A DNA stretch of 33,482 nt. Origin: a candidate division WWE3 bacterium CG_4_9_14_0_2_um_filter_35_11. Its GTDB lineage: Bacteria; Patescibacteriota; WWE3; 2-01-FULL-39-13. Of the stretch, positions 17,351 to 25,838 are shown one piece after another. The first letter of the stretch is position 1; each line of letters begins with the position of its first letter. The stretch spans positions 1 through 33,482 of the forward strand of contig PFSJ01000024.1 of the NCBI GenBank assembly GCA_002789015.1. Direction: 5' to 3'. Below the pieces are notes generated by a model that worked only from the letters and a program-made list of their open reading frames with translations, did no database searches and was not told the origin of the DNA. Position numbers and translations under genes: made by a program.

Positions 17351-18425
17351 TTATCCAAAAGTAAACGCAAAGAGTTCCGCGTTGCTATCTTCAAATTCCA
17401 AACGAAGTGTATGTCTACCTGCAACTGACAGGTTTATTAATTCATAAAGTTTATCGGCATCGACTGTAATAACGCTATCAAGTTCATCATCAATATAGAC
17501 TTTCACTTTTGCAGGTGTTCCTTTTGTTCGCATTACCAAAAATACTTGCTTTGATTCAAAATTAAATATTAAACTTGCACCTTTTTGAGGATTTGCGTAT
17601 TCAGACATGACGTTCCAATCTCCCTTATATGCAAATTGATTCGTTTTAATTGTAGTAGGTGCTGTATATGTCGCAAACGAATCTGGAGTAATCTTTTCTT
17701 TTGAAGCAAAATTATCGATTCTTCCATATCCCAAATATGTTTCTGGAGTTTTTGCATATGTTTGATATTCAGGATTATCAATTGGTGTGGAAATTTCAGT
17801 TGCTCCAGCTTCTTCTAAAAGGTCTTGTATTACTTTTTCAGTTTCGTCATATCCGCCTTCACCAAAGTGTGTGTAGCGAATGTATCCAATCTTTATCGAT
17901 TATGTATTTTGCTGGCCAATAGCGGTTGTTGTAAGCTCTCCACGTAGAAAAATTGTTATCTTGAACGATAGGGTAGGTTAGTCCAAAATCAGAAATAGCC
18001 TGTGACAGGTTTTTTGCATTTTTCTCGAATTCAAATTCTGGTGCATGAACACCGATTATCACAAGACCTTTGTCTTTGTATTTTTCGTTCCATGATTTTA
18101 GATATGGAAATGTTCTTTGACAATTTATGCAGGTGTATGTCCAAAAATCGATTATGACAACTTTGCCTTTAAGCTCACTAAGTATCAAAGGGTCAGTATT
18201 AAACCACACCCCACCGAGAATTATTTCAGGAGCCATAGGACCTTTTGGGAGTATCGTGTCAAATGTCAGGTCTGTTCCATCATTTTTTTGAAGCTGATTT
18301 CTAATTAATCTGTTATCTTCAAAGTTTGTTAATCCCGCACCATATTTTGGAAATGTATTTAATATATAAGTTTGAAATTGCCTGTCTATACCTGCTATAA
18401 ATGCGAATGCGACAAGTAAAATCAT
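17351..18425 (-). pseudogene. DipZ-like thioredoxin-family protein, frameshifted and lacking the CcdA domain
   Basis: Two frames join into one protein. The first (from 18425) has one hydrophobic helix (about 1-12), then a redoxin domain with active site FWTYTCINCQ (Cys99, Cys102), and runs to YIIDKD. There one extra base (an A at 17888/17889 on the plus strand) shifts the frame into WIHSLHTLW and a stop. Without that base the sequence continues DGYIRYTHFGEGGYDETEK and into the C-terminal DipZ domain (GYGRIDNFASK to AFTFG, ending at 17351). Typical DipZ proteins start with a six- to eight-helix CcdA domain; here only its last helix remains. The ATG overlaps the upstream stop (ATGA). A sequencing error is possible. 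Confidence 0.85.
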
Positions 18426-18940
18426 TTAATATTTGCAATTAATTCAGCCAAATTACCACCGTTCCATTTTGTGATCTCATTTCCATCTGTGTCGATTTGA
18501 ACAAATGTATGTTGATATGTGACGCCATGCTTTTTGGCAAGAGCTTTTTCTTCTTGATCTGTATCTGGGTCATTATAATTGACACGAATTATAGTTACAT
18601 CTTCTGGAATTAGATTTCCGTTTATAGTTAGATCTGTATCGGTAGGTCTGCAAGTAGGGCACTACGTTGCATAGAAAAATAAGACTATTCGATTAGTCGT
18701 GACCTTGTCTAAAACCTTTTCTGAATATTCTATATATCGTGAGTTCCTAACTGATTCATTTGTCATAGGATCCTCAACTGTAAGGTCTTTTTTCATCATT
18801 GCTTCTTCGGTTTCGGTAGTCATCTTTTCTGCATCCTCGTCTCTATCATTTTTTAGATTGATAGAAGCCGTATATGCAAAAACCGCAATAAGTAAAATGG
18901 CTACAACAACAACTGGTAGAACTATTCTTTGATTTTTCAT
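18422..18940 (-). pseudogene. Membrane-anchored thioredoxin-like protein with amber codon at the active-site Trp
   Basis: The frame runs for 172 codons with one in-frame stop. An N-terminal helix (about 7-24) and an acidic, Met-rich linker precede TNRIVLFFYAT, then TAG at codon 93 (complement of 18662-18664), then CPTCRPTDTDL and a normal thioredoxin-like end (VTYQHTFVQIDTDGNEITKWNGGNLAELIANIK). The expected motif is WCPTC, so one G-to-A change turned TGG into TAG at the catalytic Trp. The end overlaps the start of the DipZ-like gene by 4 bases, so the two formed a redox operon. Both copies are now broken, by mutation or by sequencing error. Confidence 0.85.
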
Positions 18941-19442: not shown

Positions 19443-19476
19443 TTGACTTGTTCCGCTTACTGTATATATAATATAC
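19443..19476 (+). promoter_or_regulatory. AbiE promoter with overlapping palindromic operator
   Basis: TTGACT (19443-19448) and TATAAT (19467-19472) are spaced by 18 bases. The -10 box lies inside a perfect interrupted palindrome GTATAT-ATA-ATATAC (19462-19476), a likely operator for the AbiEi-type antitoxin, which in known systems represses its own promoter through inverted repeats. Confidence 0.65.
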
Positions 19477-19481
19477 AAATA

Positions 19482-20108
19482 GTGAAACAAGTAGACAAGC
19501 TTAAACAACTAGAAAACATAAGTTATTTTGATACAGAAACTGTAGCACAACTAACTGGACTCGAGGGGAACACCCTATATAAAAATATTTCCAGGTGGGT
19601 TAGTCAAGGGTGGATTATCCGATTAAAAAAAGGCGTATATACAACAAAAGCTTTTTATTCAAAACAAAGTACCGAAAATTACCTTGAATTTGTAAGCAAT
19701 AAATTACGCTATCCATCATATCTAAGCCTAGAGTATGTTTTAAATAAATACCAAGTGCTTACTGAAAGTGTGTTTATTTATACATCAATTACACAGAAAT
19801 CAACAAGGTCGTACGTAAATGATCTTGGAACATTTTCTTATAGGAATGTAAATAAGTCATTATTTACTGGATATTCAGTGATAAGGCAAGGTAATTTTGA
19901 AATTGCTATTGCAACAAAACCAAAAGCTCTATTCGATTTTCTTTATTTAAAATTATATAGAAATTCTGGAATTACAAAGTCAATGATCGATGACTTAAGA
20001 TTAAATTTAGACGAATTTACTAAAAAAGAAATAAAAGAATTTTCTGATTATTGCAAAAGTACAAAAATTGATAAATTTTATAATTTAGAGAAATTAGTTT
20101 TTAATTAA
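19482..20108 (+). CDS. AbiEi-type antitoxin / transcriptional repressor
   Basis: 208 residues if translation starts at GTG 19482, ten bases after the -10 box. An in-frame TTG at 19443 would add 13 residues but lies within the promoter, so I reject it. The N-terminal winged-helix domain (YFDTETVAQLTGLEGNTLYKNISRWVSQGWIIRLKKGVYTT) and the C-terminal AbiEi segment (PSYLSLEYVLNKY, SRSY-like TRSYVND, IATKPKALFDFLYLKLY) match the type IV AbiE antitoxins. It precedes the AbiEii toxin gene with a 1-base gap. The transcript would be nearly leaderless. Confidence 0.85.
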   Translation: MKQVDKLKQLENISYFDTETVAQLTGLEGNTLYKNISRWVSQGWIIRLKKGVYTTKAFYSKQSTENYLEFVSNKLRYPSYLSLEYVLNKYQVLTESVFIYTSITQKSTRSYVNDLGTFSYRNVNKSLFTGYSVIRQGNFEIAIATKPKALFDFLYLKLYRNSGITKSMIDDLRLNLDEFTKKEIKEFSDYCKSTKIDKFYNLEKLVFN

Positions 20109-20109
20109 C

Positions 20110-20964
20110 ATGATAATTAACTATATCAACAAAATTATTTTAACAGAACAAAACAAGGGGTCGAATCCGCTTTATGCTAGAAGTGCCATAAAAGAATATT
20201 TGCAGATTTTAGTTTTACAATATATTTATACAAATAATGAGTTTAAATCAAATCTTATCTTTACCGGGGGTACTTGTTTACGACATTTTTATGGAATAGA
20301 TAGATTATCAGAAGATCTAGACTTTGACTGCATTGAACACGTAGACACAAACAAAATTGCGAGCAAAATAGAAACATACTTTAAAAGTTCTTTGAAATAT
20401 CCAGAATTAAAAGTATCTATCAAACAACACGGTAAACAGATATTATTAAAATTTCCTATATTAAGGTTAGTTGGTATTGCAGGTCCAAATGAATCCGAGA
20501 TGTTATATATTAAAATTGATCTAACGTTGCTCGATACGAAAAACCACAATGTTGAAAAGAGCTCAAAAAGTGCATTTGGGTATAATTTTGTTGCTTTACA
20601 CTATGATCTTCCAAGTTTATTTGCAGGAAAAATTTCAGCGATTCTAACCAGAAATTTACTAACTGGAAAAGACAATAAACAAACAGTAAAAGGCAGAGAT
20701 TTTTATGATCTATTGTGGTACTTAAAAATGAGTGTTCAGGTAAATATCGATCTGGTAAAGGAAAAAACTAAGATTTCGAATTTAAATTTAGATAAATTGA
20801 CGAACCTTGTAGACGATGAAGTTAATCTTGCTTGTACTAAATATAAAAATGACTTTACAAATGACCTAGTTGCATTTATTAATAACAAAGACTTTATTTT
20901 AGACTATGTTGATAATTACTTAGAGGAATATAAAAGATATAAAATAACTTCATCAGCTAATTGA
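20110..20964 (+). CDS. AbiEii-type nucleotidyltransferase toxin
   Basis: 284 residues. The DUF1814/AbiEii motifs are all visible: FTGGTCLRHFYGIDRLSEDLDFD (Gly53-Gly54, Asp69, Asp71), the third acidic site YIKIDLTLLD (Asp137), LPSLFAGKISAIL, and KGRDFYDLLWYL (Lys194 to Leu204). Known AbiEii toxins are GTP-dependent or tRNA-modifying nucleotidyltransferases that arrest growth and can abort phage infection. The ATG follows the antitoxin stop by one base. All catalytic residues are intact, so the module is probably active. Confidence 0.88.
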   Translation: MIINYINKIILTEQNKGSNPLYARSAIKEYLQILVLQYIYTNNEFKSNLIFTGGTCLRHFYGIDRLSEDLDFDCIEHVDTNKIASKIETYFKSSLKYPELKVSIKQHGKQILLKFPILRLVGIAGPNESEMLYIKIDLTLLDTKNHNVEKSSKSAFGYNFVALHYDLPSLFAGKISAILTRNLLTGKDNKQTVKGRDFYDLLWYLKMSVQVNIDLVKEKTKISNLNLDKLTNLVDDEVNLACTKYKNDFTNDLVAFINNKDFILDYVDNYLEEYKRYKITSSAN

Positions 20965-21186: not shown

Positions 21187-21708
21187 ATGATCAATAAACA
21201 TGCAAACTACGCTTTTGTTGATAGTCAAAATCTGAATTTAGGAGTTAAGAGTATGGGATGGGAGCTAGACTTTAGAAAATTTAGATTGTATTTAAAAAAT
21301 AAATACAATGTATCACAAGCCTATCTGTTTATTGGTCACGTGAGTGGGAATGAACAACTTTATACAAATTTACAAAAATATGGATATATCCTTATTTTCA
21401 AACCAACACTTGAATACAAAAAAAGCGGAAAACAAATAATAAAAGGTAACGTTGATGCGGAGTTGGTTTTGCATACCATGATCGAATACCCCAATTACAA
21501 TAAGGCTATAATAGTTTCTGGGGATGGAGATTTTCATTGTCTAGTTGAGTACTTAGACGAGAAAGATAAGTTGTTAAGACTCATTGTCCCAAATAAAAAA
21601 TACTCGAGCTTGTTACGAAAGTTCAATAAATATATCGTGGAAATAGAAAATTTAAGAAGTTTATTAGAAATAAAAAAGGCCAAGATCAGCGGTCGGTCGA
21701 AACCTTAG
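21187..21708 (+). CDS. NYN-domain (LabA/DUF88-type, PIN-like) protein, putative ribonuclease
   Basis: 173 residues. The acidic residues of the PIN-like NYN fold are in place: Asp12 in FVDSQNLN, Asp90 in KGNVDAELVLHTM, and Asp113/Asp115 in VSGDGDFHCLVEYL. The protein stops soon after the core with a basic tail (KKAKISGRSKP). Family members are metal-dependent RNases or RNA-binding proteins; the specific substrate is unknown. It sits between an AbiE module and tRNA genes, so a role in tRNA or phage RNA cleavage is possible but only inference from context. Confidence 0.85.
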   Translation: MINKHANYAFVDSQNLNLGVKSMGWELDFRKFRLYLKNKYNVSQAYLFIGHVSGNEQLYTNLQKYGYILIFKPTLEYKKSGKQIIKGNVDAELVLHTMIEYPNYNKAIIVSGDGDFHCLVEYLDEKDKLLRLIVPNKKYSSLLRKFNKYIVEIENLRSLLEIKKAKISGRSKP

Positions 21709-21790
21709 GCTACTTAACTTGGTCATCGTGATGAAAACATTTTAACTTAAAGTACGAAAAGACACAACAGCACAATAGCTACTCCAAACT

Positions 21791-21867
21791 TGGTGACCCC
21801 GGCGGGGTTCGAACCCGCGATCTTCTGGATGAAAACCAGATGTCCTAGACCACTAGACGACGGGGCC
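21791..21867 (-). tRNA. tRNA-Glu (TTC)
   Basis: On the minus strand the acceptor GGCCCCG pairs with CGGGGTC. The anticodon stem TCTGG/CCAGA carries loop TTTTCAT (anticodon TTC), and the T-arm is GCGGG-TTCGAAC-CCCGC. Discriminator A and CCA are encoded (complement of 21791-21794). It lies 23 bases downstream of tRNA-Lys, probably in the same transcript. Confidence 0.95.
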
Positions 21868-21890
21868 ACACTTTACAAACCACAAAATTT

Positions 21891-21966
21891 TGGTGAGCCA
21901 GGTTGGAATCGAACCAACGACACCCTGCTTAAAAGGCAGGTGCTCTAACCCCTGAGCTACTGGCCC
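21891..21966 (-). tRNA. tRNA-Lys (TTT)
   Basis: On the minus strand the acceptor GGGCCAG pairs with CTGGCTC (one G-T). The anticodon stem CCTGC/GCAGG carries loop CTTTTAA (anticodon TTT), and the T-arm is GTTGG-TTCGATT-CCAAC. Discriminator A and CCA are encoded. Degraded copies of its 5' half follow immediately on the upstream side (21998-22119). Confidence 0.95.
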
Positions 21967-21997: not shown

Positions 21998-22073
21998 GGC
22001 AGGTGCTCGAACGCCTTTGCTTCGCTTCGGCTATCATTTGCTTCGCAAATGGAACCCCTGAGCTACTGGCCCG
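21998..22073 (-). pseudogene. Partial copy of the tRNA-Lys 5' half with a 44-nt hairpin insertion in the D-loop
   Basis: Reading the minus strand, 22073-22053 repeats the tRNA-Lys start from the base before the acceptor through the D-arm, and 22008-21998 repeats the end of the D-stem and the anticodon 5' stem. Between them 44 bases (22009-22052) replace one base of the D-loop. The insert holds a perfect hairpin CATTTGC-TTC-GCAAATG (22035-22051) and two direct copies of TTTGCTTCGC (22016-22025, 22037-22046). The anticodon and the 3' half are missing, so it cannot give a tRNA. Confidence 0.85.
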
Positions 22074-22119
22074 TACTCGGGACAGGTAGCTGCGTACTCG
22101 CAGCGTCACTGGCCCGCGA
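22070..22119 (-). repeat. Second tRNA-Lys fragment with two TACT-loop hairpins
   Basis: Positions 22108-22119 repeat 12 bases of the tRNA-Lys 5' end and its flank (same as 21959-21970). Between this and the first copy lie two short hairpins with the same loop: CCCG-TACT-CGGG (22070-22081) and GCTGCG-TACT-CGCAGC (22089-22104). No ORF in this stretch is credible. Confidence 0.75.
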
Positions 22120-22144
22120 AATCGGGAATTTCTGCTTAATTTTA

Positions 22145-22175
22145 TATGAAACAGACTAAATAGGCAAAGCTTTTT
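22145..22175. repeat. 31-bp direct repeat, copy 1 (duplicated truB 3' end)
   Basis: Identical over 31 bases to 23300-23330 (starting TATGAAACAGACTAAATAGG). On the minus strand it encodes the last codons of TruB (KALPI and stop) plus the following bases, but here no truB gene precedes it. Together with copy 2 it brackets the Tat-signal gene, like an att-type duplication. Confidence 0.9.
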
Positions 22176-22203
22176 TGACATCGATGGTTTATTATATCAA
22201 TAG

Positions 22204-23298
22204 ATGACAATTAATTCAGATATACAAGAAGAAAAACCAGAAGGAATAACGAGAAGGAATTTTTTAACACTAGCAGGCATAACAACCATTGCAGCTCCAC
22301 TTGCATTGAAAGGTTTAGAAAGCGCATTCTATCAAGGTTTAATCTTTGGGTTTAATAATCCGACGGCCAACGATTCGGCTACCTCAATAGCATTAAGGAT
22401 TGGAGAAATGGCTCCAAACAGTGAAAATTTAGAATACCGACCGATGATCGACATTTTAGAAGAAGGAATAGCCACATATAAATTGGAATCTGGGCCACAA
22501 CCATTCTCTCGAAGAATCGACGATTACAAAGGCGTTGACTATTATATTGACGTAATCGATAAATATCGTTCTGAACATTTATTTCCACAACCACCAAATA
22601 AACTTGTTGGTCAACTCGTCAGCAACTTCCCGCAAGGAGCACATGAAGCATATTTTCAAAGTTCGATGGCGAACAATAGTTTTGAAGAATTGTTTACCGC
22701 TGGAAGTGGTTTTGACAAAAGATTTAGAAAAAAACACCCTGAATTTATCCATAAGTCGGGCTTGTATATTAACAACGATAAAATCGGACAAATAATGTAT
22801 GAAGAAGGAAAGCTCGAAATAAATGAATTAAAACTGATGATCGAAGAAAAAAAAGCAGAAACAGGAGCTCCGGTCTCTGCTTCGTATATTTTTGCACATT
22901 TCCTAAAAGGAAACGACGGTGATATCTCAAATAGCATTTTTGACACAGCAATCTTTTTAAAATTCATGGCAAGGAACAATTCAGATACAGGCGACTTTGT
23001 ACCAAATGAAAATAACGTTAACTGGTATAGGCAGAACATTAAAGATGAATATCAAGGCCAAAATTATACGTCTACACTCGAGGATGAAAAGAAATCGGCT
23101 ATTAATTTGATAGGGAAACCATATCACAGCTGGAACCTTGTCTCTATGCTTCAATTTCTTCCAGTTGAAGTTATCAGAATAGGGGGAATACAAAAACAAC
23201 TTTCAACATTCTCTGAACAAGGATTGGGTAAAACAAGAGCAGACATTCAGACATTAGACGACCTAAAAAAAATAGAATCATTTCTTTTTTCTTTTTAA
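22204..23298 (+). CDS. Protein of unknown function with Tat-type signal
   Basis: 364 residues. The N-terminus has a twin-arginine motif TRRNFL (16-21) and a hydrophobic stretch (LTLAGITTIAAPLAL), as in Tat-exported proteins, but no clear signal peptidase site. The rest is hydrophilic, with YKGVDYYIDVIDKYRSEHLFPQPP and NKIGQIMYEEGKLEINELKLMI-like segments, and I recognise no family. A TATTAT box (22190-22195) ends 8 bases before the ATG. The gene is alone between two copies of a 31-bp repeat whose second copy is the 3' end of truB, so it looks like an inserted single-gene cassette. Presence of a Tat translocase cannot be checked here. Confidence 0.75.
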   Translation: MTINSDIQEEKPEGITRRNFLTLAGITTIAAPLALKGLESAFYQGLIFGFNNPTANDSATSIALRIGEMAPNSENLEYRPMIDILEEGIATYKLESGPQPFSRRIDDYKGVDYYIDVIDKYRSEHLFPQPPNKLVGQLVSNFPQGAHEAYFQSSMANNSFEELFTAGSGFDKRFRKKHPEFIHKSGLYINNDKIGQIMYEEGKLEINELKLMIEEKKAETGAPVSASYIFAHFLKGNDGDISNSIFDTAIFLKFMARNNSDTGDFVPNENNVNWYRQNIKDEYQGQNYTSTLEDEKKSAINLIGKPYHSWNLVSMLQFLPVEVIRIGGIQKQLSTFSEQGLGKTRADIQTLDDLKKIESFLFSF

Positions 23299-23299
23299 T

Positions 23300-23330
23300 T
23301 ATGAAACAGACTAAATAGGCAAAGCTTTTT
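23300..23330. repeat. 31-bp direct repeat, copy 2 (native truB 3' end)
   Basis: The copy that overlaps the functional truB terminus (coding from 23311 upward on the minus strand). It begins 2 bases after the stop of the cassette gene. See copy 1 at 22145-22175. Confidence 0.9.
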
Positions 23331-24075
23331 CATCTAGCCTGTATTTTCCAACCCTTGTTCTTTTGATTGTTAACGTGCATGCACCAACTTTTAGGTCTTT
23401 TCCTAGCTTGTATGCGATTGCTCTTACGTAGGTTCCTTTAGAAACTGTTGTTTTTATTTTAGCGATTAGAAATTGCTTTTGTTTTGAAGAATTCAGAACT
23501 TTTTCCCAACTTTCCAAAACTTGCTTTTGACGGAATCCTGATTTTACAGTTTGAAGTAGGGAATTTATTTTTGCATGGAGATCTTCTTTTGGAACCATTT
23601 CAATACTTTTGATTTCTGCAAAATCAATATGAACCTGCTTAACAGGAATTTCCACCTCATTAATTTTCCCATCTAAATACCATCGATATAACTCGCGACC
23701 TTTGACTTTTACAGCACTAAAGGCTGGCACCGGCTGGTCAAGGTCACCTTTAATATCCGATATTAAATTATTCAGCTGTGGTAACAAAATATCGCAATCA
23801 TAAGATCCAACCTCCTTGACCAGCCCTAAAATATCATACGTATCCGTTTCAAACCCAAATAAAACCTCAAAAATATACTCCTTATCACAATTCATAAACT
23901 CGCTTTGCCTTTTCGTCGCATCTTTTCCAACAAGACAAATCAAAACGCCACTTGCCAAAGGATCCAAAGTTCCTGCATGACCAATCTTCTCACCTGGAAA
24001 CTTCTTTTTTAAATCCCTTATAACATCAAAACTTGTAACACCAAGTGGCTTATTAACAACCAAAATTTCATTCAT
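23311..24075 (-). CDS. truB: tRNA pseudouridine-55 synthase TruB
   Basis: 254 residues from the ATG at 24075. Upstream in-frame codons give a nonconserved extension, and a TACATT box (complement of 24082-24087) ends 6 bases before this ATG, so I choose it. The start reads MNEILVVNKPLGVTSFDVI, and the catalytic Asp lies in GHAGTLDPLASGVLI. KEYIFEVLFGFETDTYD and PVPAFSAVKVKGRELY follow, then KTTVSKGTYVRAIAYKLGK. TruB makes the universal pseudouridine in the T-loop. A 19-bp palindrome lies in the gene (23749-23767). The 3' end is duplicated at 22145. Confidence 0.94.
   Translation of the reverse strand: MNEILVVNKPLGVTSFDVIRDLKKKFPGEKIGHAGTLDPLASGVLICLVGKDATKRQSEFMNCDKEYIFEVLFGFETDTYDILGLVKEVGSYDCDILLPQLNNLISDIKGDLDQPVPAFSAVKVKGRELYRWYLDGKINEVEIPVKQVHIDFAEIKSIEMVPKEDLHAKINSLLQTVKSGFRQKQVLESWEKVLNSSKQKQFLIAKIKTTVSKGTYVRAIAYKLGKDLKVGACTLTIKRTRVGKYRLDEKALPI
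23749..23767. repeat. 19-bp palindrome, copy in truB
   Basis: TTTAATATCCGATATTAAA, two 9-base arms around one base (or 8-3-8). It encodes part of NLISDIKG on the minus strand. Confidence 0.85.
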
Positions 24076-24144
24076 AATTAAAATGTACCATGGCGCAAAA
24101 TTAACATAGCATATTCCGTTTATTACAGAATAATATCTAAATAT

Positions 24145-24150
24145 TATAAT
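24145..24150 (+). promoter_or_regulatory. -10 box upstream of the Zeta-like kinase
   Basis: TATAAT followed 28 bases later by ATG 24179. A second in-frame ATG (24149) lies inside the box and is therefore unlikely to be used. Confidence 0.45.
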
Positions 24151-24178
24151 GATTTCATTACTAAATCTAGTAAACATT

Positions 24179-24781
24179 ATGGCCTTTATAGTTTCATCAG
24201 ACGAAATAAAGAAAGAATTAACCAACTATTCTCCTGATAAAGCAGAAGAATTTCATCGCGAATCCGCAATGAAGACAGATAAAATATTTTCAAAAGCATT
24301 AAAAGAGCGTTCTTATATCGGTGTAATTTTATTAAATGGAGGTACGGCTTCAGGAAAGAGCGAGTTTTTATCAACACAACTTAAGGGAAAAAATTATATT
24401 ATTCTCGATGCGACACTGTCTACAGAACTAGATGCTAAAAACAAATTAAGGCAAAACATGAAAGTAGGTAAAACCCCAATAATATATTCAGTCATACCTG
24501 ACGATTTAAAAAGGGCTTTTATCGCTTTTCTTAGTAGGGACAGAAAATTTAGTGATACACATTTTTATAAAACTCACTCAGGTTCAAGAAGGACATTATT
24601 ATGGATAACCAAAAATTACCCTGATATAGAAATTAATATTGTTGAAAGTTCCTATACTTTAGATGGAAAATTACAATCCTCGCAAATTCAATTTGATCAG
24701 AAAAAGAAGCTATATAATACGCAGAAACAAATGCTACCTCCGGAACTGCAGTTTTTATCCATAGCTCTGACGGTCGCATAA
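24179..24781 (+). CDS. Zeta-toxin-like P-loop kinase
   Basis: 200 residues from the ATG at 24179. The Walker A loop LLNGGTASGKSEFL (GGTASGKS, 54-61) is followed by YIILDATLSTELDAKNKL, TPIIYSVIPDDLKRAFIAFLSRDRKFSDTHFYKTHSGSRRTLL and a C-terminal VESSY segment. This layout resembles Zeta/PezT-type kinases: a P-loop after a short helical lead, an acidic residue 15-20 residues later, and basic residues in the lid. Known Zeta toxins phosphorylate UDP-sugars and block cell-wall synthesis. No epsilon-type antitoxin precedes it; a 53-codon ORF follows. A non-toxic phage or housekeeping kinase remains possible. Confidence 0.6.
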   Translation: MAFIVSSDEIKKELTNYSPDKAEEFHRESAMKTDKIFSKALKERSYIGVILLNGGTASGKSEFLSTQLKGKNYIILDATLSTELDAKNKLRQNMKVGKTPIIYSVIPDDLKRAFIAFLSRDRKFSDTHFYKTHSGSRRTLLWITKNYPDIEINIVESSYTLDGKLQSSQIQFDQKKKLYNTQKQMLPPELQFLSIALTVA

Positions 24782-24793
24782 AAGAGAGAAAGG

Positions 24794-24808
24794 ATTACTA
24801 GAAGTAAT
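24794..24808. repeat. Short inverted repeat between the kinase and the 53-codon ORF
   Basis: ATTACT-AGA-AGTAAT followed by TTTTATATC. It may be an operator before the TATATC box (24811-24816), or a weak terminator of the kinase gene. Confidence 0.35.
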
Positions 24809-24825
24809 TTTATATCGAAAGTTGT

Positions 24826-24987
24826 ATGAATACAAAAAACTTATTAGAAAAATCTAATAGAGGTTTTAAAACATTAAAAATCGACCAAAAGTTCAAAGAC
24901 TCAGCCCTTTTGCATCTTGAAGAATGGTTATCACAAGATTTATATAAAGACTACAGACCACAAATCGAACATATTATTAATAGTTAA
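24826..24987 (+). CDS. 53-residue protein: mutase N-terminal remnant or partner of the kinase
   Basis: ATG to TAA is 54 codons, coding for a soluble helical protein starting MNTKNLLEKSNRGFKTLKID and continuing DSALLHLEEWLSQDLYKDY, then RPQIEHIINS. Two readings are possible. The second half resembles the extreme N-terminus of alpha-phosphohexomutases, where a helical HLEEWL-type segment precedes the FGTGG motif, so this could be a truncated mutase remnant. Alternatively its position 44 bases after a Zeta-like kinase, behind an inverted repeat, would suit an antitoxin. I cannot decide between these. A TATATC box ends 9 bases before the ATG. Confidence 0.45.
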   Translation: MNTKNLLEKSNRGFKTLKIDQKFKDSALLHLEEWLSQDLYKDYRPQIEHIINS

Positions 24988-25011
24988 ACAGTTAGATAAA
25001 CAACTGAGATA

Positions 25012-25040
25012 TTGACATATTTCACGCTTTAACAGAATAT
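25012..25040 (+). promoter_or_regulatory. Promoter of the HAD phosphatase gene
   Basis: A perfect TTGACA (25012-25017) is 17 bases from GAATAT (25035-25040), and the ATG follows after 6 bases. Confidence 0.55.
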
Positions 25041-25046
25041 CAATGT

Positions 25047-25838
25047 ATGACATATACAATACAAAACTTTCCATTTGAAAAACTAAATGCAAAAAAACTA
25101 ATTTCATTTGACGCAGACGGAACGCTTGTTCTAAGCAAAACTCCAATGGACGCCGAAATGGTTGCAATATTCAACAAACTCCTTCATTCAAAATATATGG
25201 TAAATATCGTCTCTGGTGGAAAATACTCCATCTTTTTTGACAACATAATCTCCAAAATAACAGATGATCCGAACGACCTAAAATCACTTACATTAAGCCC
25301 AACCTGTGGAGCTAAATTCTTTGAATTCGATAATCAATGGCAGGAATCGTATAAAGAAGAACTAAGCGAAGACCAGAAAAAAAGAATTTATGCAGCATTT
25401 GACTATGCTCTAAAAATGGCTAATCACCAGCCACAAAAACTTTATGGAGAACTAATCGAAGACAGAGGGACTCAAATAACATTTTCAGCGGCTGGCTCCA
25501 CAGCTCCACTTGAAATAAAAAACAAATACGATCCAGATTTTAGTAAGCGATTAATAATAAAAAAATACCTTGACGAAAAAATCGGAGATTTAGACGTAAA
25601 AGTTGCAGGAACAACCTCGATTGACGTGACTAAAAAAGGAATTAACAAGGCATACGCAATGAAAAAACTAATGGAAAGATTTAATTTAAATATGGACGAA
25701 ATTCTTTTTATTGGAGATGCACTTCTCGAAGGCGGAAATGATGAACCCGTTTCCTTAATGGGAATAGACTCAATAGAAATCAAAGACGTAGAAGAAACAA
25801 AAACCCTAATCAATAAAATGCTTTCCTTAACTACCTAA
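25047..25838 (+). CDS. HAD-superfamily (IIB, phosphomannomutase-like) phosphatase
   Basis: 263 residues. Motif I is LISFDADGTLVLS (Asp22-x-Asp24), motif II lies in VNIVSGGKYSIFF, and the late motifs are in GINKAYAMKKLMERF (Lys) and ILFIGDALLEGGNDEPV (GD and ND). The cap sits between motifs II and III, as in class IIB enzymes that include eukaryotic-type phosphomannomutases and sugar phosphatases. A sugar-phosphate substrate is likely but not proven. The 3' end overlaps the convergent exchanger gene by 8 bases. Confidence 0.85.
   Translation: MTYTIQNFPFEKLNAKKLISFDADGTLVLSKTPMDAEMVAIFNKLLHSKYMVNIVSGGKYSIFFDNIISKITDDPNDLKSLTLSPTCGAKFFEFDNQWQESYKEELSEDQKKRIYAAFDYALKMANHQPQKLYGELIEDRGTQITFSAAGSTAPLEIKNKYDPDFSKRLIIKKYLDEKIGDLDVKVAGTTSIDVTKKGINKAYAMKKLMERFNLNMDEILFIGDALLEGGNDEPVSLMGIDSIEIKDVEETKTLINKMLSLTT

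Follow-up and report, generated by a model that had tools for sequence, protein, structure and literature searches.

The truB tail appears to serve as a docking site for small gene cassettes in a candidate division WWE3 bacterium

Introduction

In some described systems, direct repeats of the 3' end of a conserved gene border the inserted genes. CIMEs are att-bounded elements without integration or transfer genes (PMC5704250). In the Dehalococcoides ssrA islands, varying cargoes have an essential gene on one side and, on the other, a 20-bp direct repeat of that gene's 3' end; some of these islands are integrase-less, and sister islands occupying that site encode the serine recombinases DsiA/DsiB (PMC3146451). 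The locus described here shares features with both, as well as with integron cassettes and with the pdif modules of Acinetobacter plasmids. Our literature search found no mention of truB as an integration site. Little is known of how Patescibacteria with reduced genomes acquire accessory genes.

We analysed a stretch of 33,482 nt (hereafter the window), contig PFSJ01000024.1 of candidate division WWE3 bacterium CG_4_9_14_0_2_um_filter_35_11 (GCA_002789015.1). The source genome (G000, WWE3/Katanobacteria) is 96.6% complete and comprises 31 contigs. In the window, a single gene is bordered by two copies of the 3' end of truB, which encodes tRNA pseudouridine synthase B, and in a sister species (G001) a different cargo occupies the same slot.

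Results

Architecture of the repeat-bounded insert

A repeat search of the window identified TATGAAACAGACTAAATAGGCAAAGCTTTTT as an exact 31-bp direct repeat whose copies are spaced 1155 bp apart (Table 1). This is the sole non-simple exact repeat of at least 18 nt within 8 kb, and it has no further occurrence in the 750,652 bases of the genome even with up to three mismatches allowed. Under a second-order model of the window, about 2e-11 such 31-bp words are expected per genome. Besides the window, the exact-repeat scans covered a few other stretches and 180 kb of G001:C2.

Copy 2 consists of the last six codons of truB through the stop (AAA GCT TTG CCT ATT TAG) and 11 nt downstream. The truB gene is intact; its longest ORF with a TTG start spans 23311-24225. 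Between the two copies lies one gene, which starts 28 nt past copy 1 and stops 1 nt short of copy 2. The first-pass annotation had described an exact repeat around one gene, with copy 2 as the natural end of truB and copy 1 as an orphan duplicate. Both points were confirmed. The genome has no other truB.

Table 1. Positions of the repeat copies, the insert and its surroundings in the window
Feature	Position	Strand	Remarks
Repeat copy 1	22145..22175	+	Distal att-like copy, an orphan duplicate of the truB tail; from repeat search
Leader, copy 1 to cargo start codon	22176..22203	+	28 nt; no other non-coding DNA at this end of the insert
Cargo gene, 364-aa ORFan	22204..23298	+	Tat-like N-terminal signal TRRNFLTLAG; no relatives detected
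Repeat copy 2	23300..23330	+	truB tail, proximal att-like copy
truB, tRNA pseudouridine synthase B	23311..24099	-	PF01509, E 1e-31; target site at its 3' end
Distal flank of the reconstructed empty site	22120..22144	.	Conserved in G001, ..TATAAAATTAAGCAGAAATT; from alignment
tRNA-Lys	21891..21966	-	Landmark beyond the slot, conserved in both congeners
CTTTGCCTATTT			Stretch in which a recombinase might cut
Reconstructed joined empty site of G000			truB tail / TATAAAATTAAG

The cargo protein

No relatives of the cargo protein were detected in 379 other genomes of the phylum, nor in GTDB contigs, viral contigs, plasmids or phages, and the protein had no match in PDB, Pfam, PHROGs or PADLOC. A weak match to DUF4855 (E 0.006) was below the cut-off and was not used, and the AlphaFold model, made without relatives, was unusable (pLDDT 34). 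The only family matched was the Tat-signal family TIGR01409, and this match was marginal (17.0 bits against a cut-off of 16.7). The Tat-type signal noted at first pass finds marginal support in the motif itself, but no TatC was found in the host genome. TatC (PF00902) was absent from G000, G001 and five more relatives, and was found in 11 of 14 control genomes. The signal may serve as a Sec-type anchor, or it may reflect a Tat-bearing donor. Such a donor would fit a foreign origin. By composition, however, the cargo gene does not stand out as foreign, as its G+C content (35.8%) is like that of truB (35.7%).

A different cargo in the same slot of a sister species

The sole congener compared was a candidate division WWE3 MAG that is 100% complete (G001, CALRDH010000002.1). 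Its contig G001:C2 is collinear with the window on either side of the slot, and its truB is 79% identical to that of G000 (about 21% different at the DNA level). The 364-aa gene is absent from G001, whose slot holds a thioredoxin-like gene and a CcdA-MsrA-MsrB fusion. The fusion was matched over its whole length in G001 alone and is patchily distributed. By these distributions, both the 364-aa gene and the CcdA-MsrAB operon are accessory.

The truB tail of G001 reads GAAAAAG-CTTTGCCTATTTGA (L035 9218-9231), and the cargo starts beyond it. A second exact CTTTGCCTATTTGA lies 5 nt past the cargo end (L035 11487-11500), and next to it comes the distal flank known from the window, TTTCATATAAAATTAAGCAGAAATT. 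Coding sequence reaches within 38 and 5 nt of the insert borders. The core common to both borders in G001 is just 14 bp; the chance of finding this 14-mer within 12 kb is about 8e-5, a value that does not yet require the border position. The distal copy is orthologous between the species, with window positions 22123-22169 aligning to G001:C2 47532-47486.

When the cargo and one repeat copy were removed, the resulting empty sites of the two species aligned gap-free across the junction, as predicted by integration into an old contiguous sequence of truB tail and downstream DNA. The joined flanks read GAAAAAGCTTTGCCTATTT-6 nt-TTTCATATAAAATTAAGCAGAAATT, and the sole difference is a block of about 6 bases. 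The two cargoes are oppositely oriented relative to truB, and the fixed gene-to-site polarity of integrons is therefore lacking.

Site-specific integration into the truB 3' end with restoration of the target gene, as originally proposed, is supported by the different cargo in the same slot and by the collinear empty sites; restoration holds because truB is intact in both species. Nor is the gene with its repeat a shared inheritance of all relatives: the gene is missing from G001 as well as from the other genomes of the phylum, and the G001 slot combines a duplicated truB-tail core with a cargo of its own.

The comparison also bears on two explanations that involve no dedicated recombinase. An assembly misjoin, or replication slippage, might have copied the truB tail around an ordinary gene, as could happen in a draft as fragmented as G000. 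We consider this highly improbable, since in another species, assembled independently, the same core borders other cargo, and since 31 bp is below the usual k-mer length of assemblies. Alternatively, a circle carrying the truB tail by chance might have entered by Campbell insertion through short homology, dependent on RecA or on annealing. The repeat length is near the minimum for homologous recombination, and no recombinase is linked to the site. This route nevertheless seems unlikely, because it leaves unexplained why two cargoes in two species sit at the same last codons of truB, and why G001 has a 14-bp core.

Age and distribution of the duplication

Although the species differ by about 21% in truB, the two repeat copies in G000 are identical, so the insertion in G000, or its last conversion, probably postdates the split between G000 and G001. 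Among 40 other truB loci of the class and phylum, we found no convincing comparable 3'-end duplication (the best tail matches were 10-13 nt, and one of 16 nt was of low complexity) and saw no truB-specific element. The slot is thus known in this genus alone. A search of GTDB genome contigs for further truB relatives returned only G001, and because one congener was compared, recurrent use of the slot refers to two genomes.

Two members of the same family have other arrangements. In G002, a tRNA pair lies about 0.4 kb after truB, without a comparable cargo gene. In G004, truB and tRNA-Lys are separated by an unrelated 496-aa ORF, in a stretch cut by a contig end. The core 17-mer had 12 matches in viral contigs, whose flanks were unlike the site; these were attributed to chance.

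Candidate recombinases and the nature of the site

Family searches found no recombinase on contig PFSJ01000024.1, in line with the earlier remark that the cassette has none of its own. In the whole of G000 there are only two PF00589 proteins, both of which were read as Xer-type tyrosine recombinases. One (355 aa, on contig C20) is vertically conserved beside ruvC and pyk, and the other (292 aa, on contig C2) was classed by its length and conservation. The genome also encodes one large serine recombinase, on contig C7. An identical core of 31 bp at a gene 3' end is more in keeping with a tyrosine recombinase than with a large serine one, and given this core, a tyrosine recombinase is the most likely acting enzyme. 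A Xer-like 339-aa gene directly upstream of truB in G014, a genome of the same class (L025 2203-3150, minus strand), was considered and rejected, as no repeat was present there.

The truB tail might contain a dif-like site at which the chromosomal XerC/XerD mobilise the cassette; the cassette would then be an IMEX or a pdif-like module. The presence of two Xer-type enzymes and no other PF00589 protein in G000 is consistent with this, and Acinetobacter pdif modules are likewise small gene units without a recombinase. We regard the idea as quite unlikely, however. When scored against the dif arms of E. coli, B. subtilis and a consensus, from which WWE3 dif may differ, the site matched at 11-12 of 22 positions, no better than random 70-bp windows (means 11.3-11.9), and a dif-like site was rejected on these arms from other bacteria. 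Furthermore, the sites here are direct, whereas those of pdif modules are inversely oriented. An attC-like site was also rejected, since paired hairpin structure was missing in the fold test: the 31-mer folds at 0 kcal/mol, and for the longer stretches with flanks included (81 and 61 nt) folding was not better than that of shuffled sequences (z about +0.6).

A larger element might instead have brought its own enzyme. An integrase-bearing ICE, IME or prophage may have entered the truB tail and then shrunk to one gene between attL and attR. Integrase-less att-bounded elements usually arise by such decay (PMC5704250), some ssrA islands lack integration modules (PMC3146451), and integrase-type enzymes are present in both G000 and G001. 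A search of the insert for ICE or IME remnants found none, only one ORF of substance, and neither occupant of the slot contains a remnant of an integrase, phage or mobilisation gene. In addition, the 31-bp repeats are still identical, and non-coding DNA amounts to just 28+1 nt in the G000 occupant and 38+5 nt in that of G001, a tight fit that decay is unlikely to leave twice. This near-absence of non-coding DNA favours small cassettes as the units of integration over decayed islands, but is only suggestive because intergenic spacers are short in these genomes. We therefore hold the decayed island to be a tentative possibility, somewhat short of an even chance; it overlaps with the explanation that we prefer (see Discussion), being a variant of it that concerns the fate of the recombinase.

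Other features near the slot

Several features around the slot were recorded in their own right. Just upstream of tRNA-Lys, positions 22000-22118 contain two degenerate partial copies of the 5' part of this tRNA, both of them carrying a hairpin insert; the part that includes the first copy is 88% conserved in G001, above the level of truB. On the other side of truB, positions 24149-25838 encode a kinase/zeta-toxin-like ORF and a HAD hydrolase, in the place taken in G001 and G002 by a phosphomannomutase-like gene next to truB. This is another replacement.

The window also contains an AbiE type IV toxin-antitoxin pair (19443-20964), which shows 73% DNA identity over 1.5 kb to G006, a genome from another family of the same taxonomic order. 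This suggests transfer. In G001, AbiEi/AbiEii and a 153-aa ORF (G001:C2 82333-84596; L061 2333-4596) lie between exact 23-bp direct repeats, GCAATAACTGGACTTGGATTTGA, one copy of which is within a 139-aa ORF without relatives and the other directly after the stop of a 384-aa gene. That unit is possibly a second repeat-bounded cassette; the AbiE pair of the window has no such flanking repeats. G001 further carries an element of about 31 kb adjoining tRNA-Glu (G001:C2 ~50.7-81.5 kb), with a large serine recombinase of 521 aa (PF00239/PF07508; L035 14666-16231, minus strand). The flanks of this element are adjacent in the window (21598-21772 and 21790-21874), where the site is unoccupied. Finally, a thioredoxin/TlpA-like redox operon at 17351-18940 (minus strand) looks degenerate, with an in-frame TAG in place of the WCPTC Trp near 18662 and a TlpA-like gene split near 17734-17859.

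Discussion

It appears that small foreign gene cassettes dock at the truB tail. We think it likely that the 1,155-bp unit is an integrated cassette that arrived by Campbell-type site-specific integration at the truB tail, a route used at least twice in the genus, and that the recombinase either acted in trans or has been lost. In this model, a small circle whose attP contains the truB tail would recombine once with the chromosomal truB tail. The incoming tail would rebuild truB and the displaced tail would land on the far side of the insert, so that a single gene would end up between an intact truB and an orphan tail. Excision would result if the two direct copies recombined in the same way. 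The enzyme would have been supplied from elsewhere, probably in trans, or would since have been lost. The slot between truB and tRNA-Lys would thus have been filled twice, by the orphan Tat-signal gene in G000 and by the thioredoxin/CcdA-MsrA-MsrB operon in G001. We infer circularisation, the enzyme class, any present mobility and the function of the cargo product from the arrangement of the locus.

A fixed slot at an essential gene, filled with unrelated small cargoes in sister species and without a recombinase, points to gene capture in trans. One extension of this idea is that the truB tail is a cassette-exchange site at which compact circles of one gene or one operon are swapped in and out by a recombinase encoded elsewhere. 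This would amount to integron-like capture, with neither attC nor a linked integrase, in a host that has a reduced genome and is probably episymbiotic, and we consider it rather doubtful. The 31-bp repeat provides a tag for finding circles and other cargoes.

Among known systems, integron cassettes are likewise one-gene or one-operon units with hardly any non-coding DNA at a fixed exchange site. Unlike them, the truB repeat has no attC-like fold, the orientation of the cargo varies, the site is the tail of a housekeeping gene, and no integron integrase was recognised in a PF00589-level search of G000. IMEX and the pdif modules of Acinetobacter plasmids resemble the insert as small gene modules without a recombinase of their own, but the truB sites are chromosomal, direct rather than inverted, and not dif-like, although WWE3 dif may differ. 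The Dehalococcoides ssrA islands come closer, with varied cargoes beside a repeat of an essential gene's 3' end and integrase-less members; at the truB slot, in contrast, neither a recombinase-bearing occupant nor a tandem array was found.

By analogy, the insert would work like a minimal cis-mobilizable element. As in CIMEs, direct repeats of a conserved gene's 3' end form the borders, the target gene is intact, and the insert has one ORF of substance and no integration or transfer genes. Unlike CIMEs, no parent ICE or IME was recognised at the truB site, the borders are, on sequence grounds, att-like, and the insert is just one gene in 1.16 kb with a protein gene as its target. The locus differs from CIMEs and from the ssrA islands in lacking a recombinase-bearing element at the site, in its minimal size and in the use of a protein gene, truB, as the target.
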